A DNA stretch of 41,762 nucleotides from a virus. Under the pieces are notes generated by a model, which had not been told where the DNA came from, did not search any database, and saw only the letters and a program-made list of their open reading frames with translations. How positions within the stretch are numbered: the first letter of the stretch is position 1; each line of letters starts with the position of its first letter. The translations under genes and the position numbers were made by a program. Positions 1,463 to 41,762 of the stretch are shown here, in pieces. The stretch lies in IMG/VR virus record IMGVR_UViG_3300020202_000044, positions 1 through 41,762 of that record; one strand, given 5' to 3'.

Positions 1463-2410
1463 ATGGCTCTCCCGTTTACTTCTCAGGTTGAGGCTACGAC
1501 CCTCAACATGCTGGAGTCGGGATCGGAAGATAACGTCTACGACTCCGCCTCGCTGTGGTATCACCTCCGCGAGACGGGTCAGATCACGTACTCGGGCGGC
1601 TCCGAAATCCAGTCCTCGATCATGTATCAGAAGATCGCGGCTGCGGGGTCGTTTCAGGGTGCGGACGTTCTCTCGATCTCGCCCACGGACACCGACACGG
1701 CGGTTAAGCTGGCCTGGAAGCTCTACTACGGCAGCGTCGTCCTGACGGAGCATGACATCCTCCGCAACAGCGGCGACGAGGCCCGCGTGGACCTCATCCA
1801 GACCAAGACGAAGAACTGCGACCTGAAGCTGGCGGACCTGCTCTCGACGGACCTGTTCAGCACGAACGCTGACAGCGCGACGGGCATCACCGGCCTTCGG
1901 AACGTGGCTTCGACTTCGACCACGCTTCACAACATTCCGGTGGCGGATTTCGCTGGCTGGGTGGCTGACGTTGACGCCGCCACGTCCGCGATCACGCTGT
2001 CGGCCCTTGAACAGGGTCAGCTCGACGCGACCATCGCTTCGGATGGTCCGGACATGGGCGTGACCAACAAGGCGGTGTACAAGAAGGTGTGGGCGCTGCT
2101 CCAGGCGAACCAGCGCTTCGGCGGCGAGCAGACGGCTCGCGGCGGCTTCAAGTACATCATGCTCAACGACATCCCGATCTTCCACGACTCGCACTCTCCG
2201 GGCTCGGGTGCGGGGTCCGCGACCAACTGGCTGTGGTGGCTCAACTCGCGCCACATGAATCTGATCGTCCACAAGGACGTCAACTTCAAGGTGGAGCGGG
2301 TTCCGCGCCCCGCGACTCAGTGGATCCGGATCTGGCAGAAGTTCTTCGCCGGCAACGTGATCTTCCGGAACCGCCGTACGGTTTCGGCTTACTCGGTCCT
2401 GAAGCCCTAA
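1463..2410 (+). CDS. Major capsid protein
   Basis: A 315-residue protein between scaffold and decoration genes. It starts MALPFTSQVEATTLN and has the composition of HK97-fold capsid proteins: an early helix-rich part, then beta-rich segments (YIMLNDIPIFHDSHSPG near residues 235-250) and a C-terminal strand region ending NRRTVSAYSVLKP. Length fits the 300-350 residue capsid proteins of podoviruses. AGAAAGGG lies just upstream of the ATG and the following gene has a near-perfect Shine-Dalgarno site, consistent with high expression. I assign it by position, size and composition; no single signature residue proves it. Confidence 0.85.
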   Translation: MALPFTSQVEATTLNMLESGSEDNVYDSASLWYHLRETGQITYSGGSEIQSSIMYQKIAAAGSFQGADVLSISPTDTDTAVKLAWKLYYGSVVLTEHDILRNSGDEARVDLIQTKTKNCDLKLADLLSTDLFSTNADSATGITGLRNVASTSTTLHNIPVADFAGWVADVDAATSAITLSALEQGQLDATIASDGPDMGVTNKAVYKKVWALLQANQRFGGEQTARGGFKYIMLNDIPIFHDSHSPGSGAGSATNWLWWLNSRHMNLIVHKDVNFKVERVPRPATQWIRIWQKFFAGNVIFRNRRTVSAYSVLKP

Positions 2411-2428: not shown

Positions 2429-3001
2429 ATGGCTAGTCCCGGACGTTCCGGCGTTCCCCTCATGTTCACCGATCTGGTGACTTCGACGGGCAACGCGACG
2501 GCGCTGTATCCGCTGGGTGCTGTGCGTATCGAGGAAAACGCTACCGCTGCCCTCGGCTGCGCCACCTTCCGCTACGTGAAGTTCGACAACGGCTCTGGCA
2601 ACGTCGCCGCCGCGGCTGGCGCGATGAGCTACGTGCGGTCTACGACCGCCACCTACAACTGGGACGTGACTTCCGACGTTTCGACGTCGGATTCCGGCTT
2701 GGCGAAGGGTGCGTTCTGCTCGATCCTCACGGATGCGTACTACGGCTGGATCCAGACCAAGGGGTATCGGTCGGATCTGAAGAAGACCACTGGCTCCGGT
2801 CACGCGTGGGTCAAGGGTGACTACCTGCACGCTTACGGCGCGGCGACCGATGACGGTCGCATCAGCCGCATCAAGCTGGCGGCCACCACGAAGGCCACGG
2901 GCGCGGAGCTGCGGGCGCTCCTTGAGCGTCATTGCGGCTACGCCGCCGCTGCCGTCTCCAGCACGACCGCCACGGGTGGCGGCTACCTGGAAATGGAGTG
3001 A
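2429..3001 (+). CDS. Head decoration / capsid-associated protein
   Basis: A 190-residue protein rich in Ala, Thr, Ser and Gly, 18 bases after the capsid gene with a strong ribosome site (AAAGGAGGAG). The start LYPLGAVRIEEN and the later FRYVKFDNGSGNVAAAAG resemble small proteins that follow the capsid gene in many phages and are thought to decorate the shell. The sequence looks beta-rich, with no cysteine cluster or membrane segment. Being exposed and Ser/Thr-rich, it is an obvious acceptor candidate for the two glycosyltransferase-like proteins encoded immediately downstream; that link is inference. Confidence 0.65.
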   Translation: MASPGRSGVPLMFTDLVTSTGNATALYPLGAVRIEENATAALGCATFRYVKFDNGSGNVAAAAGAMSYVRSTTATYNWDVTSDVSTSDSGLAKGAFCSILTDAYYGWIQTKGYRSDLKKTTGSGHAWVKGDYLHAYGAATDDGRISRIKLAATTKATGAELRALLERHCGYAAAAVSSTTATGGGYLEME

Positions 3002-3046: not shown

Positions 3047-3814
3047 ATGCTCTACATCGTCAAGCCCTCTCTTCTCAAGGACCCTCGCATTCTGGCGCTG
3101 GTCAAGAAGAATGGGGACAACCCAGAGACGAATCTGGTGTCCACGGAGACGAGAGTGGATAGCTGGTACGCCGTCAGGAAGCGTCATCCAAATGAGCCCT
3201 GGAAGCACTCCAGGGAGCTTTACGGGAAGCATGACGGCGCTACCTTCCTGATTACCGGCTCAGGCCCTTCGGTAAAGACGCTCGGGAAGATCCCCAAAGA
3301 CTGGGTGGTGATGAGTATCAACCGCTCCGTCGTCGTCCCGGAGAGGGTCGATTACTGGTGCGCTTGCGATGTCGATGCCGTCTCCCAGGTGCGGCCCGCG
3401 CAAACCGTTACGCGCGTCTTTGGGATCCAGACATACGACCAGATGAAGGGCAAGCCCTTCTACGCGGTGGAGTTTAACGGCACCCCGCTTCGCTGGAAGC
3501 TCCCGGAAACGCGGCCTCTCTACTGGAATGAGACGACCCTTGGGTGGGTCATCCACCTCGCTATCCGTATGGGGGCCTCCAGAATCATCACTATCGGAAC
3601 GGAGTTGTCCGCCGCCGGTCAGTTTGACGGCTTTGTTCAGCCTGGGAAGTCAAGGGATTGGCAGTGTGCCCAGCATCTTGGAGTCCGAGACCGGATGCTC
3701 TCGATGTTCAGCCCCGTCGAAAAGCTCCAGTGGTATGAGCGCCCTTGCGAGATCCTAGATGCTTCTAACGGAGCCCTCCCCGTGGCGAAAGTGAGGCTTG
3801 CGGATGTCGTCTAA
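3047..3814 (+). CDS. DUF115/GT42-like glycosyltransferase, copy 1
   Basis: A 255-residue protein. After about 60 residues comes ATFLITGSGPSVKTL (residues 65-79), which has the GxGPSLK nucleotide-binding motif seen at the start of Campylobacter CstII-type sialyltransferases (GT42) and in DUF115/Maf proteins. It is followed by VVMSINRS (87-94; conserved Asn) and VDYWCACDVDA (101-111), then a helix-strand block TTLGWVIHLAIRMGASRIITIGTE, the counterpart of the GxxALGYKEIYLSGID segment of CstII. Families of this type move CMP-activated nonulosonic acids onto proteins or glycans. Its neighbours are the decoration protein upstream and a second transferase overlapping downstream. The start codon lies behind a hairpin. 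Substrate and acceptor are inferred, not shown. Confidence 0.65.
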   Translation: MLYIVKPSLLKDPRILALVKKNGDNPETNLVSTETRVDSWYAVRKRHPNEPWKHSRELYGKHDGATFLITGSGPSVKTLGKIPKDWVVMSINRSVVVPERVDYWCACDVDAVSQVRPAQTVTRVFGIQTYDQMKGKPFYAVEFNGTPLRWKLPETRPLYWNETTLGWVIHLAIRMGASRIITIGTELSAAGQFDGFVQPGKSRDWQCAQHLGVRDRMLSMFSPVEKLQWYERPCEILDASNGALPVAKVRLADVV

Positions 3815-4574
3815 TGCCTCCGCCAAGGGCCTCTACGGCACCCAGAAGGGCTCGCTTTGCTTCATCATTGGCCGCGGCCCGTCCCTCAAGAATGCGGTGC
3901 GGCATTTCGGCTCCGGGCAGAAATACCCCCACGTCTTCACCATCGCCATCAACAAGGCGATTGAGGAGGTCCCCGCCGATTACTGGTTCTGGATGGATCT
4001 GGACGCCTACCAGGGGTCGAAGGACCATCCCAACGCCAAGAACGCCATCAAGTGCGGCGTAGATCGCTGGGCCTCAGAGTACGAGCCTGATGTCTACACC
4101 TGGGAACGCGCCGGCGCTCCCGGAGTCATCGGGCACAAGGGGCGTAGCCAGTTCGCCAAGGACGTATTCGAGGATGGGAAGCTCGCCTGGAATGGCGTCT
4201 CCGCCATCGGTTCCGCTTCCCTCGCCTGGCATCTGGGCTGCTTCCGCATGGTCTTCGTAGGCTGCGAGAACAAGGACACCAACGGCTACATCGATAAGAG
4301 AGAGAAGGAAGACCCCTCTAGGAACTGGAGGGAAATCTACGGATTCACTTTCGCTCGCGTAGCGGAGGCGCTCAAGAACCGCGCCTACTGGATGCACCCC
4401 AAGATCATGATGGCGGACGCCTCCCATACGGGGGTCGAGTACGGCGATCTCGCGCTTCCGAAGACGACCATCCCGAAAGAGCTGGAGATGGTGGAGGGCT
4501 TCTACAAGGCCCTGGGGAGAGGGGAAATCAACCCGGATCAGAAGATCCTTAATCGTGGAAGGATCCTGACGTGA
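3804..4574 (+). CDS. DUF115/GT42-like glycosyltransferase, copy 2
   Basis: A 256-residue protein starting at ATG 3804, inside the end of copy 1 in another frame. LCFIIGRGPSLKN (18-30) is a closer match to the GNGPSLK motif of CstII than copy 1. TIAINKAIEEVPADYWFWMDLDAY (47-69) repeats the Asn and Asp-x-Asp positions of copy 1, and a GVSAIGSASLAWHLG helix runs into the strand FRMVFVGCENKD. The two copies share architecture but little sequence, so they are old paralogues or separate acquisitions, perhaps with different linkages or acceptors. A motility accessory factor-like transferase is the nearest known analogy. Alternative: a non-sugar transferase on the same Rossmann-like fold. Confidence 0.65.
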   Translation: MSSNASAKGLYGTQKGSLCFIIGRGPSLKNAVRHFGSGQKYPHVFTIAINKAIEEVPADYWFWMDLDAYQGSKDHPNAKNAIKCGVDRWASEYEPDVYTWERAGAPGVIGHKGRSQFAKDVFEDGKLAWNGVSAIGSASLAWHLGCFRMVFVGCENKDTNGYIDKREKEDPSRNWREIYGFTFARVAEALKNRAYWMHPKIMMADASHTGVEYGDLALPKTTIPKELEMVEGFYKALGRGEINPDQKILNRGRILT

Positions 4575-8688: not shown

Positions 8689-8691
8689 TGC

Positions 8692-11600
8692 ATGGCGCTA
8701 GACAAAGGGCTCGGCCCCCTGCCTCCCGGACGCCCTATTCAGCCCATTCGGGGCATTGAAAGCGGCGCTCCGGGCAAGAACAACCGCACGGGCATGAAGC
8801 CCATGAGCCCTATGGGGGCTATGGGTGGACTTCAGACTATGCGCCCGATGGCTCCCATGCAGCAGTCTCCTTACGACCAGGAGGAGATGGCGCTGGACGC
8901 TATCCGCAACGCTCCGATTGAGTCCGTAGACACTCCTTCGGCGGTCTTTGATCGGCCCCCTATCGACACCCCCAAGACGTTTCAGGGCTGGGTCAAGAAC
9001 CTCTCGGACGACGTCGGCAGCTTCATCGAAGGCATCCCCGCCATGGTGAAGCAGGCGTGGACGTCCGGGAAGTACATCTCCAAGAATCTCGACGGCGTGA
9101 AGATGCTGTACGAGAACCCCGAGTTTCTGACGAAGGAGCTAGACCAGCTTAAAACCGACGTCATCAAGGGGATCACCGACACCTACAAGGACGGCTTCGG
9201 GGAAGCCCTCTACAAGCATCCCTTCACGGTCCTCATGGACGCTACGACCATCTTCGACGTCCTGGGGGGCGGGCTCAAGATGGCCGGCAAAGCCGCGATG
9301 ACCGCCGCCGAGAAGCAGGCGATCAAGGCTGGCGTGAAGCTCGCCGACTCCACGGCTACTCGTCTCCTGAAGCTGGGAGACAACATCCAGAGGACGCCGG
9401 GGCGTATCTTCGCCGCTCCGATCCAGGCCGTGGGAAGAGGGGCGCTCAAGATCCCGGCCGTCCAGAAGTTCGCGGAGGCTCACGCCCTCACTCCTTACGG
9501 GCAGAGCCGCGTCCAGAGGATGACTTCGATCCTCCTGGAGAACCGCGTTGCTTCCTCTCAGCCCTACGTTGACGCCTTCAAGAAGTCGATCTCGAAGGCG
9601 GACTGGGCTGAATTCCGCCAGCTCGTCACGGGCTACAAGCCGCTCGAGGATGCCAGCAAGCCCATGCTCGCGGAGTACGCGCAGGAGTGGCGCAAGATCA
9701 ACTCCGTCAACGAAGAGTGGATGAAGAACTGGGGGATCAAGAATCAGGGGGAGCTTGACGCCGCGGCCCTGAAGCCGCTGGCGGAACAGCTCTATGAGGA
9801 GGGCCTGATCCCTCAGCCCTGGCGTGTTGAAGGCGGGAAGGTCGTCTACAACCAGGAGGGGCTCGACGCGGCGAAGGCGTGGACCCAGGGGGCTAACCCC
9901 TTCGGGAAGCCCACGGAGGCGACCTACTGGAAGTACATCGAGGACCGCAAGGGTGGCGTCCTGGACTTCCTTGAAGACCTGAAGGGGGAAGCGAACAACC
10001 TCAACCGGGTCAAGCGCTTCGAGAAGAAGGGCCTCGCGGAAGGGACGATCAAGGACCCGGCCGTGGTCATGGCCCGCTCTCAGCTCCAGATGGCGGAGCT
10101 GCGGGGCATGGTCGATTACGTCGCCGACACCATCCAGAACAACGGGAAGCTCATCAAGGGTGGCGCGGACGCCCCCAAGGGCTACGTGTTCATGGATCCC
10201 GTCCTCATGCGGTACATCGAGAATGGCCTGATCCCTGGACATGAGCTGATGGTGAGCCGCTACGCCGACGAGATCGCCAAGGGGCTCAAGCCCTACGACG
10301 CCCTACGGAACGCGGCTAAGGCGGTAGACGCCGAGGCTGGCCCCGCCATGATCGCCGCGGCTAAGGAAGCGGTCGATAACCCGAAGAACTGGGGGATCGC
10401 CATCCCCGTCGAGGATGCCTACCTCATCGAAAGCCAGCTTCGCGGCGTAAGCGGGCCGCTTCGCTTCTACGACAAGCTGATGAACACCTGGCGAAGCGTG
10501 GTCCTTCGCCTCATGCCCCGCTACTACATGAACAACCTGCTCGGGAACAGCATTCTGCTCCTCTCGGGCGGTCATCTGCCTTGGAGCAAGACCGTCACGG
10601 AAGCGAAGGTCCATCCGGCGGAAGCCATCTCCGCCTCCGGGCTGCTCTCCGAGGCTGGGTATCACGCGGACTTCCTCTCCCACGTCCCGGGAATGAAGCA
10701 GATTGAGAAGATCACGGACAAGCTCGCCTCCGCGACTGACGCCCGCCCTCGCGGGCTCCTCGCGGAGACGAAGCTGAGGGAGATCCTGAAGGAAGAGGCG
10801 GAAGTCGGCAACATCCTCGCCGCTCAGATCGTGGCGGATGGCGTCACCAAGGAAGCCCTGGACGCCCTCATGATGGCCCGGAAAGAGGAGCAGGCGCTTG
10901 CCGGCCGTCAGGCCCTCGGCGCTAAGAAGCTGACGCTAAGCATCGAGCAGCAGAACGAGCTTGGCAGGATTGACGCCCAGATGGCGGAGGTCCAGAAGAG
11001 GATCGACACCGAAAGGGCTTTGTCCAATGCCGCGCCGCCGCCCCTTCCTTCGCAGGACATCGCGGGCCTGGAAGCCGCTATCCAAGCCAAGATCGCTGAA
11101 AACGCTCCTGTTGTCGAGATCCGCCAGCTTCAGAGCCGTCTACAGGCTGCTCAGAATAGTAAGCAGGCTGCGGTAGCGAGCCCCACGAAGCTACAGGAGC
11201 TTCAGGAACAGCTTAGAAAGCTCGGGAGCGTGCGCCAGCAGAAGGTGGGCTCCTACCCCTTCCAGGGAGGCGCTAACGCTGGCAGGGACGTTGATGAACT
11301 GATCCAGCTTGCCGCCCGCAGGGAAGCCCTTAAACCCGCCTCCATGCTGGTCGAGAAGGCCGTCACCGAAATGGAGCGGTTCCTGGGCAACTACGGCCGG
11401 CAGCATCCGATCACCCGCGAGTGGATCCGGAGGGCTATCCCCTTCTGGACGTTCGCCGCGACCCTCAACAAGCTCCTCTTCACGATGCCTTTCGTGGCTC
11501 CGAAGAAGGCGTTCCTCTGGAACCACTACGCCAAGATGATGATCGACGGGGCCAACGACGACAGGCTCCCTCCCCGCTTCCGCAACCATATCCCCATTGG

Positions 11601-25090: not shown

Positions 25091-25756
25091 TCAGATCAAA
25101 GGCTTCATCGCGTTCAGGGATTCCTGCATGTCCGTGATGTGGGCGTATGTCTCGGTGATCTTGCTCGAGGAGTGGCCGGCGAACACTTGGGCCTTCCGGA
25201 GATCGCGAGTCATCTTGTAGATCGCGGTGATAGCCGTATGACGGAGGCTATGGATGCCGCGACCGTACTTGTAGAGGCCCATTTCCGTGATGAGCAAGCG
25301 CCAACGGCGCTGGATGCTTCGGAGGCTGGCGTGCCCGCCGATGCAGACGTCCTCCGTCCAGGTCTTCCGCTCCTTCGTCACCTTGTCCGTCTTGGAGCGG
25401 TGGATGATGCACGGCTGGCAGCGGCCCGGGAAGATATAGCCATCCTCGACCGCGTTCGCGCGGCGGTGAAGGATCTCCATGACCGCGGGCATTACCTCGA
25501 TGGGCGCGGGGTGAAGGTGGCGCTTCTTCCGCCTGGTCATCATCAGGCGCGTGGGGAGAACGTCGGACTTCTCGATGTGCGCGACCTCGGAGAGCCGTAA
25601 CCCGGTGTTGACGGCAATCAGCATACACTCATAGTCACGCTGGAACATCGGATCCAGCTCGCCGGCCTCCTTAGCCCGCTTGAGGATGTCCTGAACCTCC
25701 TCGGGGGTGATGATCTTCGCATCGTGCAGGGACCAATCGCCAATGACGCTACCCAT
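25091..25756 (-). CDS. Second tyrosine recombinase, catalytic domain only
   Basis: A 221-residue protein with Arg54 (NTGLRLSEV), His169-x-x-Arg172 (IHSLRHTAIT), His195 (FAGHSSS) and Tyr204 (ITETYAHI), so the active site is complete. There is no room for the usual N-terminal core-binding domain: only about 20 residues precede the catalytic fold. Between the Arg and the His box lies an insert with CQPC and a basic KTDKVTKERK. GAGAGGGG precedes the ATG. It is on the opposite strand from the other recombinase. It may be a resolvase or invertase, a directionality partner, or a relic of a second integration module. Confidence 0.8.
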   Translation of the reverse strand: MGSVIGDWSLHDAKIITPEEVQDILKRAKEAGELDPMFQRDYECMLIAVNTGLRLSEVAHIEKSDVLPTRLMMTRRKKRHLHPAPIEVMPAVMEILHRRANAVEDGYIFPGRCQPCIIHRSKTDKVTKERKTWTEDVCIGGHASLRSIQRRWRLLITEMGLYKYGRGIHSLRHTAITAIYKMTRDLRKAQVFAGHSSSKITETYAHITDMQESLNAMKPLI

Positions 25757-31783: not shown

Positions 31784-32437
31784 GTGGGGATTTCTCTCTT
31801 CCTGGCCGCTGTACTCCTTCAGGATCCGGCTCTTCCCGAGCCGATCAAGGGTCTCACCGTAGGTCTTCGTTTTACGGACCTCGGTGGGGACCTTGATGAC
31901 GACTCGTCTTGGGGTGATTACTTCGATGCTGGCATCGGCCTGGAGGTCGGATACCAGTACCTCCACCCCGTCTCCAGAAAGATCCATATCGGCGGCTATG
32001 CCCGCACGGCTCTAGACCGCTTCGCCGGCGATGAGAATGACATTTCTGACGAATTCGGGCCTCTTTTCATCGAGGCGGATGACATGAGCCTGTTTCGGCT
32101 CACCCTCGGAGGTCGCATCCGGGAGACCTTCGGTAAATTCTTCATGGATCAGTCCATCGGCTTCGGCTTCGTCACCTACTCCGACGTCGATGCGGAGGTT
32201 TCAGATGACCTGGGCTCCCTCGGCAGCTTCAGCTTCATCGAGGGTGGCACCGAGTTTACCTTTGAATTAGCCGCCCGCTTCGGCCTCGTCCTCTCCCCCC
32301 TCGCTTCCATCTGGATTTCCTTCGGCTATGAGAATAACGGAGCCCCGGAGGTCGCCTCCGACGTCGATGACGGCACGTTTGACTACGAGAAACAGAAGAA
32401 TTTCGTCTTCTCTCTCGGAGCTAATTTTAATTTCTAG
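31784..32437 (+). CDS. Outer-membrane beta-barrel protein (moron)
   Basis: A 217-residue protein from GTG 31784 with TAGGAGG upstream. A short hydrophobic N-terminus (GISLFLAAVLLQDPA) may be a signal peptide, though it lacks the usual basic start. The rest alternates polar and hydrophobic residues in strands such as KGLTVGLRFTDLG, AGIGLEVGYQYLH, IHIGGYARTALDRF, LFRLTLGGRIRETF, SIGFGFVTYSDVD, FTFELAARFGLVL, IWISFGYENNG and FVFSLGANFNF, ending in Phe as barrel proteins do: eight strands, as in OmpA/OmpW-size barrels. Its own promoter and terminator show that it is a moron, likely expressed in the lysogen to change the host surface or block superinfection. Confidence 0.75.
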   Translation: MGISLFLAAVLLQDPALPEPIKGLTVGLRFTDLGGDLDDDSSWGDYFDAGIGLEVGYQYLHPVSRKIHIGGYARTALDRFAGDENDISDEFGPLFIEADDMSLFRLTLGGRIRETFGKFFMDQSIGFGFVTYSDVDAEVSDDLGSLGSFSFIEGGTEFTFELAARFGLVLSPLASIWISFGYENNGAPEVASDVDDGTFDYEKQKNFVFSLGANFNF

Positions 32438-32460: not shown

Positions 32461-32490
32461 AAAGCCCCTCGAAATTGAGGGGCTTTTTTA
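32461..32490 (+). terminator. Intrinsic terminator after the barrel gene
   Basis: AAAGCCCCTC (32461-32470), loop GAAATT, GAGGGGCTTT (32477-32486) then more T: a perfect 10-pair stem with a T run, and A-rich on the opposite side so it can also stop converging transcription. It closes the moron unit. Confidence 0.9.
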
Positions 32491-32518
32491 TTGACATAAT
32501 CCTTCGGATTCGTAGACT
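32491..32518 (+). promoter_or_regulatory. Late-operon promoter candidate
   Basis: TTGACA (32491-32496), 16-base spacer, TAGACT (32513-32518), starting directly at the end of the terminator T run. It would begin the message for the sugar cassette and, through closely packed genes, the terminase, portal and head genes. Confidence 0.65.
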
Positions 32519-32556: not shown

Positions 32557-33228
32557 TTGCGAGTCCTCGGCATCATCCCTGCACGGGCAGGTAGTAAGCG
32601 ACTACCCCACAAGAACACCTCCACTCTAGAGCTAGGCTCCCTACAGCTCTGGGAAATTGCCGCCCATCAAGCCCATCGGGCCGGCTGCGATAAAGTCATC
32701 GTCACCACCGATGACAAGATGATCCTCAGGCATAGACCTAAGCACCCCTGGCTTAAACTCGCTAGAAGGCCCTCCAGGCTCGCCAAAGACACGTCCCCCG
32801 TCGAAGATGCCATCTCCCACGTTTTGACGCGGGAGAAAGGCTACGAAGCCCTCTGCGTGCTTAATCCGACTCATCCCCTCCGCCGCATTGATGACATCCG
32901 CGAATGCATCAAGGACGTCACCTGGCGGGATTACCCCAGCTCCACCCTAGGCTGGAAGGATTACTGGTACACGCTTCAGGAGGGTGCGGCTCTACGCACC
33001 ATGAACGCCCAGGACCGCCTTCCCCGCCTGGTCGTCAGCGGCGAATGCTATGTCGTCCGCACCCTCGCCTTCATCGAATTCCGCAATCTCATGATCTGCG
33101 GTCGGGTCAATAAGGGCTACCTCCGCCTGTCTTCCGGACCCCATATCGACATCGACACCTACGAGGATCTTGTCTGCGCCCGCGCCCTCTGGGCCGAGCG
33201 CCGTAGTGAAGAGGAGGCTATCGCTTGA
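32557..33228 (+). CDS. Acylneuraminate (nonulosonate) cytidylyltransferase-like enzyme
   Basis: A 223-residue protein from TTG 32557, chosen because AGGGGG stands six bases before it and because the protein then begins, like NeuA/PseF, right at RVLGIIPARAGSKRLPHKN (residues 2-20), the CTP-binding signature. VIVTTDDKMI, RRPSRLAKDTSPVEDAISHV and LCVLNPTHPLRRIDDI follow in family order. Such enzymes join a nonulosonic acid to CMP in the cytoplasm. A GTG at 32533 is an alternative start. It opens the cassette with the NeuB-like gene. KdsB is less likely, because its IPARYxSTRLPGKP motif is absent. The actual sugar is unknown. Confidence 0.8.
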   Translation: MRVLGIIPARAGSKRLPHKNTSTLELGSLQLWEIAAHQAHRAGCDKVIVTTDDKMILRHRPKHPWLKLARRPSRLAKDTSPVEDAISHVLTREKGYEALCVLNPTHPLRRIDDIRECIKDVTWRDYPSSTLGWKDYWYTLQEGAALRTMNAQDRLPRLVVSGECYVVRTLAFIEFRNLMICGRVNKGYLRLSSGPHIDIDTYEDLVCARALWAERRSEEEAIA

Positions 33229-33539
33229 TCGACCTTTCTAAGGTCCAAAGTCTTATTAAGTATTTTGGCGACCTTTCAGACGACGAGATACTTTGCGCCG
33301 TCCAGGCAGAGCTTATTAGAGCAAAGAATAAATCCAGGGCACTAAAGCCCCCTTCCACGATCCACTACAGAACCGACAACCAAGAGGAAGTTTATTGCCG
33401 CATTGTCAAGAGTCAGCGCGACGGGGACACCTGGGACTATAGGGAAGTAACCTGCAAGAACTGCCTACGCCTAATGTACAGCTTCGCTTTCGACATGTAT
33501 TACTTCCTTGAGGGGAAACGCCCTGGAGGGGGATTCTAG
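33225..33539 (+). CDS. Small protein inside the sugar cassette
   Basis: A 104-residue protein from TTG 33225, which overlaps the upstream stop (TTGA) and has GAGGAGG upstream. It starts with a helix (LSKVQSLIKYFGDLSDDEIL) and ends with strands and a CKNC pair (VTCKNCLRLMYSFAFDMYYF). No family recognised; translational coupling suggests it works with the cassette enzymes. Confidence 0.6.
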   Translation: MIDLSKVQSLIKYFGDLSDDEILCAVQAELIRAKNKSRALKPPSTIHYRTDNQEEVYCRIVKSQRDGDTWDYREVTCKNCLRLMYSFAFDMYYFLEGKRPGGGF

Positions 33540-33540
33540 C

Positions 33541-34149
33541 GTGACCAATAACGGCAGGAAAGAGCATCCCGTCCTGTTTGCCGATGAAAAGTCAGGCTGG
33601 CTCCCCGACAAGCCTAACGAGATCGCCTTCACCCTGACCCGCTACACGTTCGCTCTCACTGTCGCATCCGATATGCTCGAAGAGAACCGCAACACCTACC
33701 TAGATTTCGGCTGCGGCACGGGCCTTGGAACCGAGCTGATCGCCTCTTCCTTCAAGAAGTCCTACGGGGTCGAGAAGCGCCCCGAATGCATCGAGTACGC
33801 CGTCCGCGTCCATAACCGCGCTCCCATTTCCTACCTCCACAACCTCCCCGATGGAGCCACCTTCGATTACGTCACCATGCTTGAGGCCATCGAGCATCTT
33901 GACCAAGCGGAGGCCGTCACCATCCTCCGCGCTATCTCGTCGGCCATGCCTGCCCATGGCGTTCTCTACATCACCACGCCGGTCTCCGGGACCCACGACG
34001 GGAGCAATCCCGATAACACCTACCACAAGCATGAGTACCATCCCGGCGAACTGAAGACCCTCCTCGAACGGTTCTTCTACTCCGTCGAAATCAGAAACTT
34101 CCTTGGCGTTGACTTCCTTCAGGCCATCTGTCAGGAGCCGAAGAAGTGA
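33541..34149 (+). CDS. Class I SAM-dependent methyltransferase
   Basis: A 202-residue protein from GTG 33541 with GGAGGGGGA upstream. NTYLDFGCGTGLGTELIASS is motif I (SAM-binding loop), YGVEKRPECIEYAVRVHN gives the acidic residue at the end of the second strand, and FDYVTMLEAIEHLDQAEAVT is the motif with the EAIEH signature of UbiG/sugar-type methyltransferases. It lies between two nonulosonate enzymes and overlaps the second, so an O- or N-methylation of the sugar or glycan is likely. A DNA methyltransferase is unlikely: no catalytic DPPY/NPPY or PC motif. Confidence 0.8.
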   Translation: MTNNGRKEHPVLFADEKSGWLPDKPNEIAFTLTRYTFALTVASDMLEENRNTYLDFGCGTGLGTELIASSFKKSYGVEKRPECIEYAVRVHNRAPISYLHNLPDGATFDYVTMLEAIEHLDQAEAVTILRAISSAMPAHGVLYITTPVSGTHDGSNPDNTYHKHEYHPGELKTLLERFFYSVEIRNFLGVDFLQAICQEPKK

Positions 34150-34982
34150 TTCTTCCTGAGGACATCGGCACCAGGGTTTCAGCGGAAGCGGGTTGTAATC
34201 ACCAGGGGGACATCCGCACCGCCAAGAAGATGATCCGAGCGGCGGCCGACGCCGGCTGCTCCGTCGTCAAGTTTCAGAAGCGCACCCCTTTCCTCATGTC
34301 CCAGGCCCATAAAGACAAGCCCTACGACAACCCCCATTCCTTCGGCAAGACCTACGGAGAGCATCGCCAGGCCCTTGAATTCAACAGCCAGCAGCACGCC
34401 GAGCTGTGGAATCAATGCCGCATGGAAGGGATTGAGTACGCCGTCAGCGTTTGGGACGAGCAAGCCTTCCTTGACGTGAAGCACCTCTCCGCCCCGTTCA
34501 TCAAGATCCCCTCCGCCCGCAACGAGGACATGGATCTCCTCCGCGTCGTCGCGGACGGCTGGAAGGGCGAAGTCCATGTCTCTAACGGCATGGCGGATCC
34601 CGGCATTGAAAAGGAGTGGAAGACCCTCTTTGGAGATCGCCTCGTTGTCTACGTCGCCACCTCCTCCTATCCCTGCCGCTTCTCCGACGTCTGCCTCAAA
34701 GACATCATCCGCCTGAAGGAAGCGGGCTACCGCGTCGGTCTTTCCGGCCATCATCAGGGGATCGCTATTGACGTCGCCGCCGCCGCCCTGGGCGTCGAGT
34801 GGGTCGAACGTCACTTCACTCTCGACCGCTGCATGAGAGGGACCGACCACGCCGCGAGCCTGGAGAAAGACGGTATCACTAAACTGGTGAGAGACATCGA
34901 CGCCTTAAAATCCGCTTGGAATGTGAGACATGGAGTGTTACCTTGCGAAGTAGAGACAAGAGCTAAACTGAAAGTGAGATGA
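34146..34982 (+). CDS. NeuB/PseI-like nonulosonic acid synthase lacking the SAF domain
   Basis: A 278-residue protein from GTG 34146 (overlaps the methyltransferase stop). Family features in order: Glu14 and Asn18-His19 (SAEAGCNHQGD), Lys42 (VVKFQKR), KIPSARNEDMDLL (120-132), VSNGMAD (145-151), GLSGHHQG (198-205), VERHFTLDRCMRGTDHAASL (220-239). These form the TIM-barrel active site that joins phosphoenolpyruvate to an N-acetyl-hexosamine-type sugar. NeuB proteins are usually near 340-350 residues and end in an antifreeze-like (SAF) domain; here the protein stops about 40 residues after the barrel, so that domain is absent. It may use a partner or be a shortened viral form. Confidence 0.8.
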   Translation: MILPEDIGTRVSAEAGCNHQGDIRTAKKMIRAAADAGCSVVKFQKRTPFLMSQAHKDKPYDNPHSFGKTYGEHRQALEFNSQQHAELWNQCRMEGIEYAVSVWDEQAFLDVKHLSAPFIKIPSARNEDMDLLRVVADGWKGEVHVSNGMADPGIEKEWKTLFGDRLVVYVATSSYPCRFSDVCLKDIIRLKEAGYRVGLSGHHQGIAIDVAAAALGVEWVERHFTLDRCMRGTDHAASLEKDGITKLVRDIDALKSAWNVRHGVLPCEVETRAKLKVR

Positions 34983-36531: not shown

Positions 36532-36827
36532 CCGAGGAAGCCCTTAACCCTGAAGACGCCGTACCGAAGTCCTTCATCCGCAAGAAGCTCCTCGAGCTGG
36601 TGGACCTTTCCGAGTCGTCGGACGAGAAGGTGAAGGTTCTGGAAGCCCTCTCCAAGCTCGAGGGCTACGTCGGCCCTGGGTCCCAGGGCTCCCATCGCAA
36701 AGACATGAAGGCGGCTGTGCAGATCGTACAGACCTCCAAGTACACCATGGAAAGGCCGAAGGTGCCGTCTGGACTCGCCCGAAGGAAAGTCGGCGATCCC
36801 CCTCCCGCCGGTGACGCCGGGACCTAA
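36528..36827 (+). CDS. Terminase small subunit candidate
   Basis: A 99-residue protein directly ahead of TerL, overlapping it by 17 bases and the membrane gene by ATGA. It is helical and charged: SFIRKKLLELVDLSESSDEK then VKVLEALSKLEGYVGPGS, with a basic tail (RKDMKAAVQIV, ARRKVGD). Small terminase subunits are of this size and place and bind the packaging start site. No clear HTH is visible, so the call rests on location. Confidence 0.5.
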   Translation: MTEEALNPEDAVPKSFIRKKLLELVDLSESSDEKVKVLEALSKLEGYVGPGSQGSHRKDMKAAVQIVQTSKYTMERPKVPSGLARRKVGDPPPAGDAGT

Positions 36828-38784
36828 GGGGACGCCGGCCGTCTGCCCATACTGCGGGAGCAGCTTCGCCAAGAAAAGCAAAGACTCCCGCTTCTGCAAG
36901 AACACCTGCTATATCGCCTGGTGGAATCGCGGGAAGGCGGTCAAGAAGAAGGCTGAGAAGATCGCTGGCGCTGGTCATCAGGTCGTCATCACCCAGAATC
37001 AGCTAAAGGACGAAACTACTTCCGTTGCCCGCGGGGCCGCGCCTACACGCGTCCTCAACGCGAAGCGTAGAGCCCCCAAGCACGTAGGGCTTGATCTCAT
37101 CGTCCCGGACTTCCCCGTTCTTCAGAAGGACAAGGACGGCGGGAAGTACATTACCCTTAACTTCAACTTCCACCCCAAGCAGCAGATCGCCTCCATGGCG
37201 GTCGAGTCAGGCGCTCGCATCGTCTTCATGCTTTCCGGCATCCGAGGCGGAAAGTCCGTCTGGATGGTCCGCGAGATCCTGAAGCAGCCCTACGTCTACG
37301 ACTCGACGCCCAACATCATGTACCTCGTCAGCCCCACCAACGGCATGATGGCGAACGTCCGCAGCCTCTTCGCCAACGCCGCTGAAGAGGCCATGATCGA
37401 CCAGAAGGTGACGTCTTCCTCCGGTCCCGCCCATTTCATCCTGAAGCCTTCCCCGTCCATCCCGGACAAATACTTCATCGTTGAGATGCACTCGGGCGAC
37501 AACCCCAACCGCATGAGAGGCCGCACCATCGCGGCGGCCGGGCTGGACGAAGTGCAGGAGATGAAGCCCGAAGTATTCGAGGTCATCAAGGGCCGCGTCA
37601 TGGAAGTGGACGGCCTGATCCTCATGTGCGGCACGGCCACCTTCCCGGGCCATTGGACGAAGACGGAAGTGATCGACCGCGCCTACCGCTGCGGGCGCTG
37701 CAACGTCTGCGTCTATGACCACTACGACTTGGCGCTCGACGCCGCGGGGAAACCTGAAGTTGACGTCTACGGGAAGGAAACCCGCAGATACGTCCCGAAG
37801 GACCACGATCCCGTCGATTGCTATGGCGACCCTCGCATCGCGGTCATCGTCTGCTCCAGCTTCGACAACACCTTCCTGGACGCCAAGCACATTGAGCAGC
37901 TCAGGAAGGACTACGCCGCCAAGGATCCCATCATCGCCCGCCGCGAGCTGTTCGCCGAGTACCTTGGCTTTGAGGGCCTCTGTTACAGCCGCTTCGACCG
38001 CATGAGGCATCAAAGCCCCTACACCGTCCATACCGTTCCACCGGACGCCTACATCTGCGCTGGACTGGACTTTGGCGCGAACGACCCTACCGCCGCCGTC
38101 TTCTGCGCCCGCGTCGGCGAGACCTGGCATGTGATCGGCGAGTATTGCGATTCAGACCGAGGCAAGGCGATCTCCGACCACGTACGGGAGATCAAGAAAG
38201 CGGCGGGGCCGATCTTCAACAGAATCAAGAAGTGGTGGTACGACCCTTCCGGGCGCATCGTCGCCATGGAGATGGGTCGCCAGGGAATCAAGCCGCTGGT
38301 CCCCGCCCGCAAGCGCAAGAGCCACGGAGAGAACTGGAAGAAGTGGCGCATCGGCATCATCAACGCCCTCATCCTCTCCAACGACGATAAGAGCCGCCCG
38401 CTCTTCCAGGTTCACCCTAGCTGCCGCTGGACGATCCAAAACCTCGAAAACAAGAAGTGGAAGCGCTACGTCTCCAAAGGTGACGACGGCCGAGAGCGCG
38501 TCATCGACATGCACGGGAAGGAAGTAGACAGAAACGCCGGGGATGACGTGGCCCCCGGCAACGACCATTGCAGCGACCCTATCGAGTACAGCATCACCTC
38601 GGAGCATGTCCACGGCTTCTTCAAGAAAGGCGAGAAAACCAAGGTTGTTGAGGGTGAAGTAGAGAGGACGCTAGAGCAGAATCACTCAATCGAAAGCCAG
38701 CACGCGTCCCGAGCAGTTGCGTCAGGAGTCCAGAATGTAGTAAATTCAATGCGGAAGCCAAGGCGTATGAGAACCGGGTGGTAG
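36811..38784 (+). CDS. terL: Terminase large subunit with N-terminal zinc finger
   Basis: A 657-residue protein from GTG 36811. ATPase part: Walker A GIRGGKS (residues 143-149), Walker B TIAAAGLDE (Asp246-Glu247) and coupling motif LMCGTATF (271-278). Nuclease part: Asp420 (AGLDFGAND), Asp478 (YDPSGR) and Asp585/Asp589 (GNDHCSDP), the three-Asp RNase H-type site that cuts packaged DNA. Unusually, residues 12-33 are a four-Cys finger (CPYC...RFCKNTC), and CGRCNVC (294-300) adds another cysteine cluster. It packages DNA into the head through the portal. It is large for its family because of the N-terminal finger. Confidence 0.9.
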   Translation: MTPGPKGTPAVCPYCGSSFAKKSKDSRFCKNTCYIAWWNRGKAVKKKAEKIAGAGHQVVITQNQLKDETTSVARGAAPTRVLNAKRRAPKHVGLDLIVPDFPVLQKDKDGGKYITLNFNFHPKQQIASMAVESGARIVFMLSGIRGGKSVWMVREILKQPYVYDSTPNIMYLVSPTNGMMANVRSLFANAAEEAMIDQKVTSSSGPAHFILKPSPSIPDKYFIVEMHSGDNPNRMRGRTIAAAGLDEVQEMKPEVFEVIKGRVMEVDGLILMCGTATFPGHWTKTEVIDRAYRCGRCNVCVYDHYDLALDAAGKPEVDVYGKETRRYVPKDHDPVDCYGDPRIAVIVCSSFDNTFLDAKHIEQLRKDYAAKDPIIARRELFAEYLGFEGLCYSRFDRMRHQSPYTVHTVPPDAYICAGLDFGANDPTAAVFCARVGETWHVIGEYCDSDRGKAISDHVREIKKAAGPIFNRIKKWWYDPSGRIVAMEMGRQGIKPLVPARKRKSHGENWKKWRIGIINALILSNDDKSRPLFQVHPSCRWTIQNLENKKWKRYVSKGDDGRERVIDMHGKEVDRNAGDDVAPGNDHCSDPIEYSITSEHVHGFFKKGEKTKVVEGEVERTLEQNHSIESQHASRAVASGVQNVVNSMRKPRRMRTGW

Positions 38785-38984: not shown

Positions 38985-39416
38985 GTGCCTTGCTATGCTT
39001 TCTACTGCCCCTCCAAGAAGCATATGACGGAGCGCTTCGCTCCGATGTCCCGCATCCCCAAGTGGATCAAGTGCGAGGAATGCGGGGATAGGGCGAAGCT
39101 GGGGATCGCCCCAACCATCGGCTTCATCAAGAACGCCGTGCTGTCCCGAAAAACCAAGGAAGGTCTTCGTTTTGCCTTCGGGAAGAAGAAGGCCGCGAAG
39201 ATGCAGACGACCAAGGACGTAGACGCGGCCCTGTACGACTTTCAAGGTCGCTACAAGCACCTCATGCCTAACTACAAGAGGGGCCGCACCTACGACCTTA
39301 ACAGCGAGCATGACAGGAAGGAGCTAGGCACTCCTAGCTTCAAGCTCTCGGACCCCTTCCCGGAAGCTCGCATTTCTGATGACGGGCGCAATCACGCGGA
39401 AAGATCGGAGCGCTGA
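38985..39416 (+). CDS. FmdB-like zinc-ribbon protein
   Basis: A 143-residue protein from GTG 38985. It opens MPCYAFYCPSKKHMTERFAP and IKCEECGDRAKLGIAPTI, the FmdB-type ribbon (aromatic start, C..C, then CEECG) found in many phage head operons. The rest is basic (KKKAAKMQTTKD, HLMPNYKRGRTYDL). It overlaps the portal start (TGATG). The role of such ribbons in phages is not established; it could link packaging and capsid assembly. Confidence 0.65.
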   Translation: MPCYAFYCPSKKHMTERFAPMSRIPKWIKCEECGDRAKLGIAPTIGFIKNAVLSRKTKEGLRFAFGKKKAAKMQTTKDVDAALYDFQGRYKHLMPNYKRGRTYDLNSEHDRKELGTPSFKLSDPFPEARISDDGRNHAERSER

Positions 39417-41302
39417 TGGCCGAGGTAGTCACGCAGCCTACTCTCTTTGGGACAAAGGGGGCTCCGCCGGCCAACAACCAGCCCGACAAGGAACCGGACG
39501 CCGACATCTGCGAAGGCGTCTGGAAGGACTTCAACAAGGACAAGGCATACAAGTACGCCATCATCAACCCATCTGACCAGAAGCGCTACGCGGAGATTTA
39601 CTACTGCCAGCATTGGAATGGGAATCAGAAGGACTGGCAGAGTACCCCGGTCATCCCACTCTCTACGGCGGCGGTCAACTCCATCCTCCCCGTCATCACC
39701 GACAACAAGCCCCAGATCGCCATCATCCCGCGCGAACCTAACGACGACAAGATCGCCGACGTCCTTCGCTCCATCATCGAATGGATCTGGGAGGAGCAGA
39801 ATTGCGACGTCAAGCTCCCGGCCACGATGCTCAACGCGCTCATCTTCGGGAACGGCTTCTGGAAGATCCTCTGGAACCCCTCGCTCCGCAAGGGCGATGG
39901 CGACATCCAGATCGTGGACGTTGATCCGACCTGCATGTTCTTCAACCCCGAGGCGAAGGACATTGACGAGGCCGAGCGCATTACCCACGTCGAGCAGATG
40001 TCGCTCCACCGGATCAAGACTCTCTGGCCCGAGAAGGGCGCTGAGGTCGAAGCCTCCGTCAAAGACAGCGAGATCGTCATCTTCCGTCCCCAGACGAACC
40101 AGAAGAACGGGCCTGGCGGGCTCATGGGGACGAAGACGGTTCCCACCACGACCGGGACTGACTCCTGGACCTACCCCTCTAACTCCATGGAGCGGCAGGG
40201 TCCAGCGTCGAAGGATTCGGCTACGGTCGCCGAGCGCTGGAGGCTGGATCGTGAGTCGATGCGCTGGGAGCGCACGGTCGTTGCGAACGATGTCGTCCTT
40301 GAGGAGCCCACCCTTACCGACTTCGAGATGGCCCCCTTCGTCCACTTCGCCGACTACAAGACCAACTGGAGCCTGTGGGCGACGGGCGAAATCCAGCTCA
40401 TCGAAAACCTCCAGTACGAGATCAACAAGCGCCGAGGGATGATCCTCGACATCCTGCGCTACTGCGCTTCCCCGATCCTGGTCTATGACCCCGGCGCTGG
40501 CGCGGACCTCGAGAACCTTGAAATTGAGCCCGGGATCTCCATCCCCGCTGAAGGTGGCCCCCAGGCGGCGGCCTGGATGGTCCCCCAGATGGACCTCTCG
40601 GGCCTTTTCGCCGTCAACGACCGCGATAAGCAGGACATCAACGACATCCTTGGCAACGTCGATCTTGTCCAGGGTAAGCGCCCCGTAGGCGTCGAGGCGG
40701 GCGTAGCCCTCGAGCAGCTCGCCGAGGCCGCGAACACGCGCCTTCGTCTCAAGGTCAGGCTCATGGAAGCGGCTCTTCGCCGCGCCGGCAAGATCCTGGT
40801 CTCCTTCATCCAGAAGCACTACACCTCGCAGCGCATCTTCCGGGTGGTCGGAAACGAGTTTGGCGCTGACGGCCAGCCACAGCCCGCGGGCATGGCGACC
40901 CAGAGCAGCTTCCAGATCAATAGGCCCGTAGGCATGGAGCAGATGCAGGACCCGGGGGGCTTCCCCATCATCGGCGACGACGGGATGCCGCAGCAGCAAC
41001 CTGTCTACGACGAAACGAGCAACCTGATTCCTCCAGATGCCGAGTTTGACGTGCGGATCGGCGCTGGGTCCACTCTCCCGGTGTCTCGCTCCAGCAAATT
41101 CCAGCAGGCGATCACTCTCTTTGATCGTGGCGCTCTGCCTCTGCGTGAATTGCTTAGAGCTTCCGGCTGGGAGAAGTGGCAGGCCATCTCTCAGGAGATG
41201 GAAATGAAAATGATGCAGGCTCAGATGGCGCAGCAGGGGATGACTGCTCCTGGGATGGATCAGATGCAGATGATCCCGGAAGGGATCAACGAAAACGCCT
41301 GA
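39416..41302 (+). CDS. Portal protein
   Basis: A 628-residue protein next to TerL and before scaffold and capsid genes. It has WKDFNKDKAYKYAIINPSDQ at the start, an Asp/Arg-rich core, SLWATGEIQLIENLQYEINK-RRGMILDI and NDILGNVDLVQGKRPVGVEA-GVALEQLAEAANTRLRLKV (about residues 410-445), the long helix region that lines the portal channel in podoviruses. The end is Met/Gln-rich. The dodecameric ring is the packaging gate and scaffold nucleator. Length fits phages with a P22-like long portal. Confidence 0.85.
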   Translation: MAEVVTQPTLFGTKGAPPANNQPDKEPDADICEGVWKDFNKDKAYKYAIINPSDQKRYAEIYYCQHWNGNQKDWQSTPVIPLSTAAVNSILPVITDNKPQIAIIPREPNDDKIADVLRSIIEWIWEEQNCDVKLPATMLNALIFGNGFWKILWNPSLRKGDGDIQIVDVDPTCMFFNPEAKDIDEAERITHVEQMSLHRIKTLWPEKGAEVEASVKDSEIVIFRPQTNQKNGPGGLMGTKTVPTTTGTDSWTYPSNSMERQGPASKDSATVAERWRLDRESMRWERTVVANDVVLEEPTLTDFEMAPFVHFADYKTNWSLWATGEIQLIENLQYEINKRRGMILDILRYCASPILVYDPGAGADLENLEIEPGISIPAEGGPQAAAWMVPQMDLSGLFAVNDRDKQDINDILGNVDLVQGKRPVGVEAGVALEQLAEAANTRLRLKVRLMEAALRRAGKILVSFIQKHYTSQRIFRVVGNEFGADGQPQPAGMATQSSFQINRPVGMEQMQDPGGFPIIGDDGMPQQQPVYDETSNLIPPDAEFDVRIGAGSTLPVSRSSKFQQAITLFDRGALPLRELLRASGWEKWQAISQEMEMKMMQAQMAQQGMTAPGMDQMQMIPEGINENA

Positions 41303-41552: not shown

Positions 41553-41762
41553 ATGGCCCTCAAAAATCGGCTCAGGCGGCGGACCCGCAGGGTTATAGAC
41601 AAAGTTAGCGATACGGGAAACCGTATCGGTGATGCCGCCAAGAGAACGGGCGAAAAGGCTAGGGCCGCGTACCAGCGCTACAAGGATCCTCTCATCATCG
41701 GCACGGGCGCTGTCGTCGGCGGCATCCTTGGGTCCATCGTCCCTGGCATCGGTACTGTGGCG
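41553..41762 (+). CDS. Glycine-zipper virion protein, 5' part (continues at base 2)
   Basis: From ATG 41553 the first 70 residues: a very basic helix (MALKNRLRRRTRRVIDKVSD), then TGNRIGDAAKRTGEKARAAY-QRYK and the start of the hydrophobic glycine-rich segment. The contig ends in mid-gene. With the 123-codon continuation at 2-370 it makes 150 residues (the last 42 codons here are the same bases as the left copy of the repeat). Confidence 0.85.
   Translation, partial: MALKNRLRRRTRRVIDKVSDTGNRIGDAAKRTGEKARAAYQRYKDPLIIGTGAVVGGILGSIVPGIGTVA
41636..41762. repeat. Right copy of 127-bp exact terminal repeat
   Basis: Identical to bases 1-127. Overlapping the two copies closes the molecule and completes the glycine-zipper gene. 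Confidence 0.95.

Follow-up and report, generated by a model that had tools for sequence, protein, structure and literature searches.

Candidate genes for nonulosonate synthesis and transfer linked to the head module of an unclassified bacterial virus

The window (the whole stretch of 41,762 nucleotides that was analysed) carries a NeuA-like gene, a 104-aa ORF, a class I methyltransferase gene, and a NeuB-family synthase gene between positions 32557 and 34982, and a pair of putative transferase genes, GT-A and GT-B, beginning one gene after the capsid gene at 1463-2410. These genes are read here as a virus-encoded glycosylation pathway that is expressed together with the head genes, and a probability of roughly 0.55 was assigned to this reading. 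Synthesis of a CMP-nonulosonate by the phage enzymes is well supported; the most likely course is late production followed by O-linkage to proteins of the head, the virion being the target that we infer.

Genome and cassette layout

The genome (approximately 41.6 kb) is that of a previously unclassified bacterial virus and is complete and circular, because a 127-bp repeat is present at its ends; the cassette therefore lies upstream of the terminase, portal, and capsid genes. Cellular contamination was rejected because the genome is circular, complete, and equipped with the TerL, portal, and capsid genes of a phage; chance ORFs were excluded by the E-values of the cassette genes and their conservation in a second phage. 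The features are listed in Table 1. The three genes named in the preliminary description (NeuA-like, methyltransferase, and NeuB-like) gave Pfam matches above the gathering scores, and the stop/start overlaps it had reported were located at 33225/33228, 34146/34149, and 34979/34982. Its placing of the cassette at the head of the late operon agrees with the terminator and promoter-like site ahead and with the small ORFs, TerL, and portal genes that follow in the same direction. Matches to the promoter consensus were near chance in number (2 found versus 1.2 expected), and the argument for this site is its position. The 104-aa ORF, which goes unmentioned in that description, had no Pfam or PHROG match and no relative in the viral loci compared. 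An integrase catalytic domain is encoded at 25091-25756.

Table 1. Coordinates of the cassette, head module, and neighbouring features in the window
Feature	Coordinates	Strand	Evidence
Intrinsic terminator closing the upstream gene	32461..32486	+	11-bp stem, T tail
Sigma-70-type promoter-like site (TTGACA-16-TAGACT) just 5' of the cassette	32491..32518	+	10/12 matches
NeuA/PseF-like CMP-nonulosonate cytidylyltransferase (putative), 223 aa, TTG start	32557..33228	+	PF02348, 1.3e-12
104-aa ORF	33225..33539	+	Stop/start overlap with neighbour; no Pfam/PHROG match
Class I SAM-dependent methyltransferase, 202 aa, GTG start	33541..34149	+	PF13489, 9e-12
SAF-less NeuB-family synthase, 278 aa, GTG start	34146..34982	+	PF03102, 2.8e-55
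Terminase large subunit (TerL), 3' of the cassette	36811..38784	+	phrog_10250, 4e-9
P22-like portal protein	39416..41302	+	PF16510, 8e-39
Major capsid protein, possible acceptor	1463..2410	+	phrog_9953, 2e-34; 70-86% identical in relatives
Small S/T-rich protein between the capsid gene and the GT pair	2429..3001	+	Position conserved in L087, L089, and L090
GT-A, GT42/Maf(PF01973)-like putative nonulosonate transferase	3047..3814	+	AlphaFold, Foldseek, profile matches of relatives
GT-B, paralogue of GT-A	3798..4574	+	phrog_4603, 0.006; AlphaFold, Foldseek

Enzymes of synthesis and activation

The profile search that had been proposed for the synthase returned PF03102 with 187.9 bits (gathering score 22.1). 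All the catalytic residues of Neisseria meningitidis NeuB (E25, K53, K129, S132, Y186, S213, H215, H236, and D247, whose roles we take to be those of structure 1XUZ) are kept in the alignment, as E14, K42, K120, S123, Y175, S200, H202, H223, and D234. The N184 position is occupied by Ser, as in PseI, and the E134 position, which is Glu in canonical NeuB, by Arg. In the canonical synthase the C-terminal SAF domain gives an Arg to the active site of the partner subunit. This domain is absent from the phage protein, whose alignment to solved NeuB stops near residue 268, and the SAF-less length is common to nearly all viral relatives (268-303 aa) and most bacterial relatives. Scores were below the NCBIfam equivalog cut-offs (TIGR03569, 169.8 versus 399.65 bits; TIGR03586, 120.4 versus 340.25 bits), and the best solved relatives were PseI, NeuB, and SpsE. 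The synthase is accordingly assigned, on these alignments, to a widespread SAF-less family and not to the canonical N-acetylneuraminate or pseudaminate synthases, so that the earlier label "sialic-like" is not supported in the strict sense, for want of the SAF domain, of equivalog-level scores, and of Glu at the E134 site.

The NeuA-like gene was started at TTG 32557, which is preceded by the Shine-Dalgarno sequence AGGGGG; the longest ORF begins at GTG 32533. Its product matched PF02348 with 48.4 bits (cut-off 22.6) and solved NeuA 9ftb at 1e-10, with the IPARAGSKRLPHKN motif. The ARxGSKxxxxKN motif is present as PARAGSKRLPHKN, and DIDTYED aligns with DIDTELD of N. meningitidis NeuA at the C-terminal DxD metal site. 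PseF, one of the families named for comparison in the preliminary description, was the best equivalog model (TIGR03584, 3e-15, 56.5 bits) yet stayed below its cut-off of 205.7, and the KdsB models matched weakly. The methyltransferase scored 45.4 bits against PF13489 (gathering score 27). A homologue with 34% identity occupies the same place in the second phage, L090, and the order NeuA-methyltransferase-NeuB, which recurs in other viral loci, suggests methylation of the sugar.

The layout resembles the bacterial NeuB/NeuA route (NeuB, PseI, SpsE, NeuA, and PseF) in that a PF03102 TIM barrel with its catalytic residues stands beside a PF02348 CMP-transferase in overlapping genes. It differs in the missing SAF (antifreeze-like) domain, the scores below all equivalog cut-offs, the lack of epimerase and dehydratase genes, and the position in a late operon. 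Also similar are the SAF-less NeuB proteins with NeuA-HAD fusions of Planctomycetota, Flavobacteriales, Nitrosomonas, Sphingomonas, and others, and Leptospira 6NCS. These synthases are of approximately 290 aa, are 43-51% identical to the window NeuB, and adjoin NeuA, but most of their NeuA proteins have about 380-400 aa, and the one examined ends in a HAD phosphatase, whereas the phage NeuA has 223 aa and no HAD domain.

Because the SAF-less bacterial synthases adjoin NeuA-HAD-phosphatase fusions, a hexose 6-phosphate precursor (Kdn type) appears at least as likely as the hexosamine proposed earlier, and the Kdn-9-P pathway of Bacteroides and Prymnesium may serve as a biochemical model. The further statement, that such sugars are probably made by the host, is not a necessary consequence, because the precursor may be a common metabolite that would need no host pathway. 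The genome has no recognised gene for a phosphatase or for the precursor. A search for the HAD phosphatase motif found none in the window and only 2 in 86 viral loci, and there is therefore no general viral phosphatase. The NanE epimerase lies beside NeuB in 12 viral loci, which suggests that the phages concerned use precursors of the mannosamine type.

The transferase-like pair and its linkage to the cassette

GT-A and GT-B scored 16.3 and 13.7 bits against PF01973 and their relatives up to 31.2, all below the cut-off of 34.6. Relatives of GT-A reached 2e-7 for PF01973 and 1e-4 for phrog_4603 (alpha-2,3-sialyltransferase), and relatives of GT-B reached 1.6e-5 for the latter. Searches of solved sialyltransferases and structures with GT-A or GT-B alone, as a single sequence or as its own profile, returned nothing significant; the CST-I model PF06002 gave no match over four records, and its controls were likewise silent. 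By profile-profile comparison the GT proteins matched phage GT42-like proteins (98.8% probability, E 5.5e-17), which themselves match phrog_4603 at up to 2e-18. An 18-sequence GT profile matched Cst-I at 4.6e-7, with false matches to DARPins at 6e-6. Foldseek placed the AlphaFold model of GT-A (pLDDT 83) closest to the P. multocida sialyltransferase 9c08 (probability 0.99), with further matches to CstII, Cst-I, and ST6GALNAC2, and that of GT-B (pLDDT 89) closest to the HPPK/MptE fold, with human ST8SiaIII also matched; TM-scores were only 0.37-0.42. GT-B also matches phage MptE-like/DUF115 proteins. A GxGPS Rossmann core, an invariant Asn, and an S/T...A..LG...I...G motif are present, and inspection by eye found a His near the Cst-I/II catalytic base, within a QHxG motif, in 3 of 4 GT-A sequences and no GT-B. 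From these profiles and models the two proteins are predicted to be homologous and to share the fold of GT42/Maf-core transferases. The GT42/DUF115-like character attributed to them earlier, weak by single-sequence search, is thus clear from relatives, profile comparison, and fold.

L090, an independent contig, has the order NeuA-methyltransferase-NeuB...TerL-portal-capsid-GT-A-GT-B, as in the window, with identities of 59% for NeuB and 50% for NeuA, and both halves at about 50%. Two further contigs, L087 and L089, retain the pair as far as they reach. The order capsid, 2429-3001 protein, GT-A, GT-B, SU10 adaptor is shared by the window, L087, and L090, and in L089 an extra GT-like protein sits between GT-A and GT-B. 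Comparison with L090 gave dN of 0.39-0.50 for NeuB, NeuA, GT-A, and GT-B, against 0.47 for TerL and 0.43 for the adaptor, with dS above 1 or saturated; the cassette and the pair are under purifying selection. The 2429-3001 protein (S+T about 20%) retains an S/T-containing C-terminus and is a candidate decoration protein and acceptor.

PF01973-like proteins were found in 24 of 50 NeuB-bearing viral records and 0 of 50 random viral records (p = 1.5e-9), an association that is no proof of a virion target, since entire glycan islands are common in phages with NeuB. This comparison, with its random-record control, superseded a GT42 count of 41 loci that was inflated because one seed, from L003, carries a fused GT4 domain and had pulled GT4 proteins into the tally. 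The same gene set is carried by unrelated phages: L015 and L011 have two GT42-like paralogues with NeuA, NeuB, and an HAD phosphatase adjoining, and L003 has GT42-like, NeuA, NeuB, NanE, HAD, and methyltransferase genes directly after a minor head gene. The phage-borne CMP-nonulosonate supply and glycosylation pathway of the preliminary description thus stand as a synthesis and activation cassette linked to the pair by conservation and co-occurrence, without the strict "sialic-like" label.

Proposed pathway and competing readings

In the proposed pathway, the SAF-less NeuB would build a 3-deoxy-2-ulosonic acid (nonulosonate) by condensing phosphoenolpyruvate and a hexose supplied by the host, which is probably either a 6-phosphate or an N-acyl-mannosamine, and a 9-phosphate product, if formed, would be dephosphorylated by a host phosphatase. 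The NeuA-like enzyme would join the acid to CMP, and the methyltransferase may O-methylate the sugar, free or bound. The Maf-core/GT42-like pair would then move it onto Ser/Thr of a head protein (the capsid protein or the 2429-3001 protein) in the cytoplasm during assembly, with no lipid carrier, and the charged coat might protect the virion or change its adsorption. The model for this step is Maf, which is described as placing nonulosonates O-linked on flagellin Ser/Thr and as having PF01973 for its central domain (PMC11339370). The phage proteins share core motifs, fold match, and the tie to CMP-nonulosonate synthesis with Maf (PF01973/DUF115 core, Cst-II-like fold) and GT42 Cst-I/II, but they are stand-alone cores of about 255 aa without the N- and C-terminal domains of Maf, score below the Pfam cut-off, and are paired paralogues adjoining a capsid gene. 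A fuller version, in which a tailed phage lineage has a near self-sufficient sialylation-like pathway for a new, possibly O-methylated nonulosonate, which stand-alone Maf-core transferases of the head module attach directly, by O-linkage, to proteins of the head, the gene set having been assembled repeatedly in unrelated phages, is tentative and somewhat short of an even chance.

The CMP-nonulosonate might instead serve the host surface, with the pair acting on host glycans to alter LPS or capsule for superinfection exclusion or lysogenic conversion. The integrase domain suggests a possible temperate life, bacterial SAF-less NeuB and NeuA occur in capsule/EPS-like neighbourhoods, and Cst-type GT42 enzymes use lipooligosaccharide as acceptor; the cassette, however, is on the late strand with the TerL, portal, and capsid genes, each of the three relatives that show the pair has it within the head module, conversion genes usually lie outside the late operon, and none of the scanned proteins was recognised as a flippase, an O-antigen polymerase, or the product of another surface-glycan gene. 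We consider this unlikely. Rather improbable, in turn, is a real nonulosonate cassette whose CMP-sugar is used by a host transferase, GT-A and GT-B being, for example, MptE-like pterin/nucleotide diphosphokinases. HPPK/MptE is the best fold match of GT-B, PF01973 takes its name from MptE, and both proteins fall under its cut-off, but pterin chemistry would leave the association with NeuB unexplained, the best match of GT-A is a sialyltransferase, its relatives match phrog_4603, and the nonulosonate-transferring Maf domain belongs to the same Pfam family.

There is also a slim chance that NeuB and NeuA make another CMP-ulosonate (an octulosonate, for example Kdo, or else a novel acid) or modify phage DNA and not protein. 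The departures of NeuB from the canonical enzyme and the weak KdsB-model match of NeuA are compatible with another acid, and Clostridium Maf is described as also using Kdo (PMC11339370). The synthase nevertheless belongs to PF03102 and not KdsA, its solved relatives are nonulosonate synthases of the PseI, NeuB, and SpsE types, and NanE accompanies NeuB in the loci noted above; the window proteins that were scanned included no visible base-hypermodification enzyme.

Animal viruses borrow the sialic acids of their hosts, and glycosylated mycobacteriophages, as far as is known, take host nucleotide sugars. The present phage would also make and activate the sugar, a nonulosonate; a virus that makes, activates, and attaches its own nonulosonate to its particle would, if the proposed pathway is true, represent a new strategy. 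Mycobacteriophage virions are shielded by glycans that decorate the capsid and tail tube subunits, and the glycosyltransferases are phage-encoded (Freeman et al. 2023, doi 10.1016/j.chom.2023.05.028, as reported in PMC12619734 and PMC12691614). Transferase genes within the structural module, a mark of phage virion glycosylation systems, are seen in the window and its relatives. The testable question is raised of whether environmental virions are sialylated and whether the charge coat benefits them in the face of host receptors, proteases, mineral surfaces, and predators, and stand-alone Maf-like transferases may serve as minimal O-nonulosonate transferases.

In a FastTree phylogeny of NeuB, the window and L090 paired with support, apart from the bacterial clade that was sampled. 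This pairing is no proof of age, as different patterns were used to sample the viral and the bacterial sequences and the tree brings long branches together. A virome survey lists neuB (K01654) and neuA (K00983) among its genes (Roux et al. 2013, PMC3877843) as counts, without cassette, transferases, or tie to virion genes. No PHROG family matched the window NeuB, and only three of 50,697 records of a phage collection did, one of them a Moritella contig. Single-protein scans gave few viral relatives, and an alignment scan was required, by which at least 575 candidate stretches of IMG/VR were found to encode one; the proposed pathway, if true, would account for this large unannotated set.

Genome and layout of the cassette

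The window, an IMG/VR virus record, carries an exact 127-bp direct terminal repeat, across which an ORF split at the window ends closes; the genome is therefore complete and circular at about 41.6 kb (about 41,635 bp). It encodes a P22-like portal (PF16510), a capsid protein (phrog_9953), a terminase and an SU10-like adaptor. Comparison of the portal with 50,697 phage records gave distant partial matches only, so the lineage has no representative among those records. The phage may be temperate, judging from the tyrosine integrase domain with genes for an Erf annealing protein and a RusA-like resolvase nearby.

All four cassette genes overlap or touch their neighbour and are followed on the same strand by small ORFs, the terminase large subunit (TerL) gene and the portal gene. 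A 217-aa protein is encoded directly upstream, from a gene served by a separate promoter-like site (31707) and terminator. It is hydrophobic near the N-terminus and ends in Phe, appears outer-membrane beta-barrel-like by eye and had no match in Pfam or PHROG. Its features hint that the host is diderm and that the protein may act at the surface.

Coordinates of the features discussed in the window
Feature	Position	Strand	Remark
Terminal repeat	1-127, 41636-41762		direct
Small protein gene	2429-3001		between capsid gene and GT pair
GT-A	3047-3814		putative transferase
GT-B	3798-4574		putative transferase
Tyrosine integrase catalytic domain	25091-25756		PF00589, 9e-21
217-aa protein	31784-32437		directly 5' of cassette
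Terminator	32461-32486		5' of cassette
Promoter-like site	32491-32518		after terminator, 5' of cassette
NeuA-like	32557-33228	+	PF02348 and solved NeuA match
ORF	33225-33539	+	between NeuA-like and methyltransferase genes
Methyltransferase	33541-34149	+	
NeuB	34146-34982	+	PF03102 match

Synthase, activating enzyme and precursor

The window NeuB matched PF03102 at 2.8e-55 in a profile search, as well as the solved structures of PseI, NeuB and SpsE. Alignment with N. meningitidis NeuB showed that equivalents of its catalytic residues E25, K53, K129, S132, Y186, S213, H215, H236 and D247 are kept; N184 is replaced by Ser, as in PseI, E134 by Arg, and the C-terminal antifreeze-like (SAF) domain is absent. 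The nucleotide motif and DID metal site are present in the NeuA-like protein.

A NeuB alignment scan found relatives encoded in at least 575 viral stretches; nearly all products in the 80 loci kept among these were 268-303 aa, and a NeuA-like gene was present in 79 of 87 NeuB-bearing loci. Glu was rare at the E134-equivalent position across the SAF-less family (motif search). SAF-less relatives with 42-51% identity to the window protein were found by a bacterial scan in Planctomycetota, Bacteroidota, Pseudomonadota and others, with a NeuA match in 75/80 loci; most of these NeuA proteins were about 380-400 aa, and the one examined (bacterial locus L105) carried a C-terminal HAD phosphatase. Joined to the activating enzyme in this way, the phosphatase points to a phosphorylated sugar as the synthase product; the Kdn-9-P pathway, in which Man-6-P and PEP are the synthase substrates, is such a case (PMC6200933). 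A NanE epimerase (PF04131) adjoins NeuB in 12 loci of other phages, so substrates may differ between NeuB-bearing phages. The precursor used in the window may therefore be a hexosamine, a hexose or the 6-phosphate of either. The viral loci L039, L043, L044, L055, L064, L069, L080 and L083 each encode two NeuB forms, one SAF-less at about 278 aa and the other longer at about 324-341 aa, which suggests that a single phage makes two different ulosonates.

Putative transferase pair and its link to the cassette

GT-A and GT-B are paralogues, both with a GxGPS Rossmann motif. Searched singly, they matched PF01973 weakly (0.009 and 0.05), as did GT-B alone phrog_4603 (alpha-2,3-sialyltransferase; 0.006); their relatives in the related phage contigs L087, L089 and L090 reached 2.3e-7 and 1.6e-5, respectively, and profile-profile comparison with phage GT42-like proteins gave 98.8% probability. 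The AlphaFold models were confident (pLDDT 83 for GT-A, 89 for GT-B) and matched, with modest TM-scores, Pasteurella sialyltransferase, CstII, Cst-I and ST6GALNAC2 for GT-A, and HPPK/MptE and ST8SiaIII for GT-B. Maf, in which PF01973 forms the core domain, resembles Cst-II and O-links nonulosonates to flagellin Ser/Thr (PMC11339370). In L089, a further protein (10753-11388), absent from the window, is encoded between GT-A and GT-B; it has a VDADAE (DxD-like) motif, gave nothing above chance against Pfam and is possibly a GT-A-fold glycosyltransferase.

The 20.6-kb contig L090 has the gene order of the window (NeuA, methyltransferase, NeuB, small ORFs, TerL, portal, scaffold, capsid, the 2429-3001 gene, GT-A, GT-B, adaptor) at 30-70% identity. 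The pair occupies the same spot in L087 and L089, contigs that start 3' of the cassette position. For NeuA, NeuB, GT-A and GT-B, dN was 0.39-0.50, similar to TerL, with dS >1 or saturated; these genes are therefore maintained. Among 50 viral records with NeuB (2.56 Mb), 24 encode PF01973-like proteins; none of 50 random viral records (1.93 Mb), which also lack NeuB, does so (Fisher p 1.5e-9). Since the records are not all mutually independent and glycan islands tend to occur in NeuB-bearing phages, this count shows association with NeuB and does not imply a target.

Proposed pathway and recurrence in other viruses

Genes, families, residues, conservation, selection and association were shown; the pathway built on them is inferred. 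PEP and a host hexose derivative would yield a nonulosonate, which would be CMP-activated, with a methylation step, and O-transferred in the cytoplasm to a head protein. The 2429-3001 protein, S/T-rich and with S/T at its C-terminus in 4/4 phages, would be a candidate acceptor. Alternatively, the host surface could be modified, the GT pair could have a different role, or the product could be an octulosonate. Earlier virome work already listed neuA and neuB (PMC3877843), and mycobacteriophages are known to have glycosylated virions (as cited in PMC12619734); in the open-access literature, no paper was found joining nonulosonate synthesis, nonulosonate transferases and phage heads.

Two GT42-like genes, NeuA, NeuB and a HAD phosphatase are grouped together in the viral loci L015 and L011. 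L003 is from an unrelated phage that encodes terminase, portal and minor head proteins; here the minor head gene is directly followed by a GT42-GT4 fusion, NeuA, a SAF-less NeuB, NanE epimerase, HAD phosphatase and methyltransferase. The NeuA/NeuB/GT42-like set therefore appears to have come together repeatedly, an argument for its working as a unit. For a sialic-acid-type pathway, the gene set of the L003 record (L002/L003, IMGVR_UViG_3300032342_000021) is more complete than that of the window. FPLJ01000048.1 (L006), from the phage collection, is not a phage; it is a chromosomal contig of Moritella viscosa that includes a capsule/sialic acid locus. In the 484-kb huge phage LR756508.1 (L004, 9247-14068), a SAF-less NeuB (9914-10813) lies in a large viral glycan island with several GT29 sialyltransferase-like proteins (by eye) and GDP-fucose-type genes. 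Marine virus AG-345-L05 (L005, Kyanoviridae), with a cyanophage-type genome, has a glycan island in which genes for a NeuA-like protein, a DegT aminotransferase and NeuB lie at 8131-10831.
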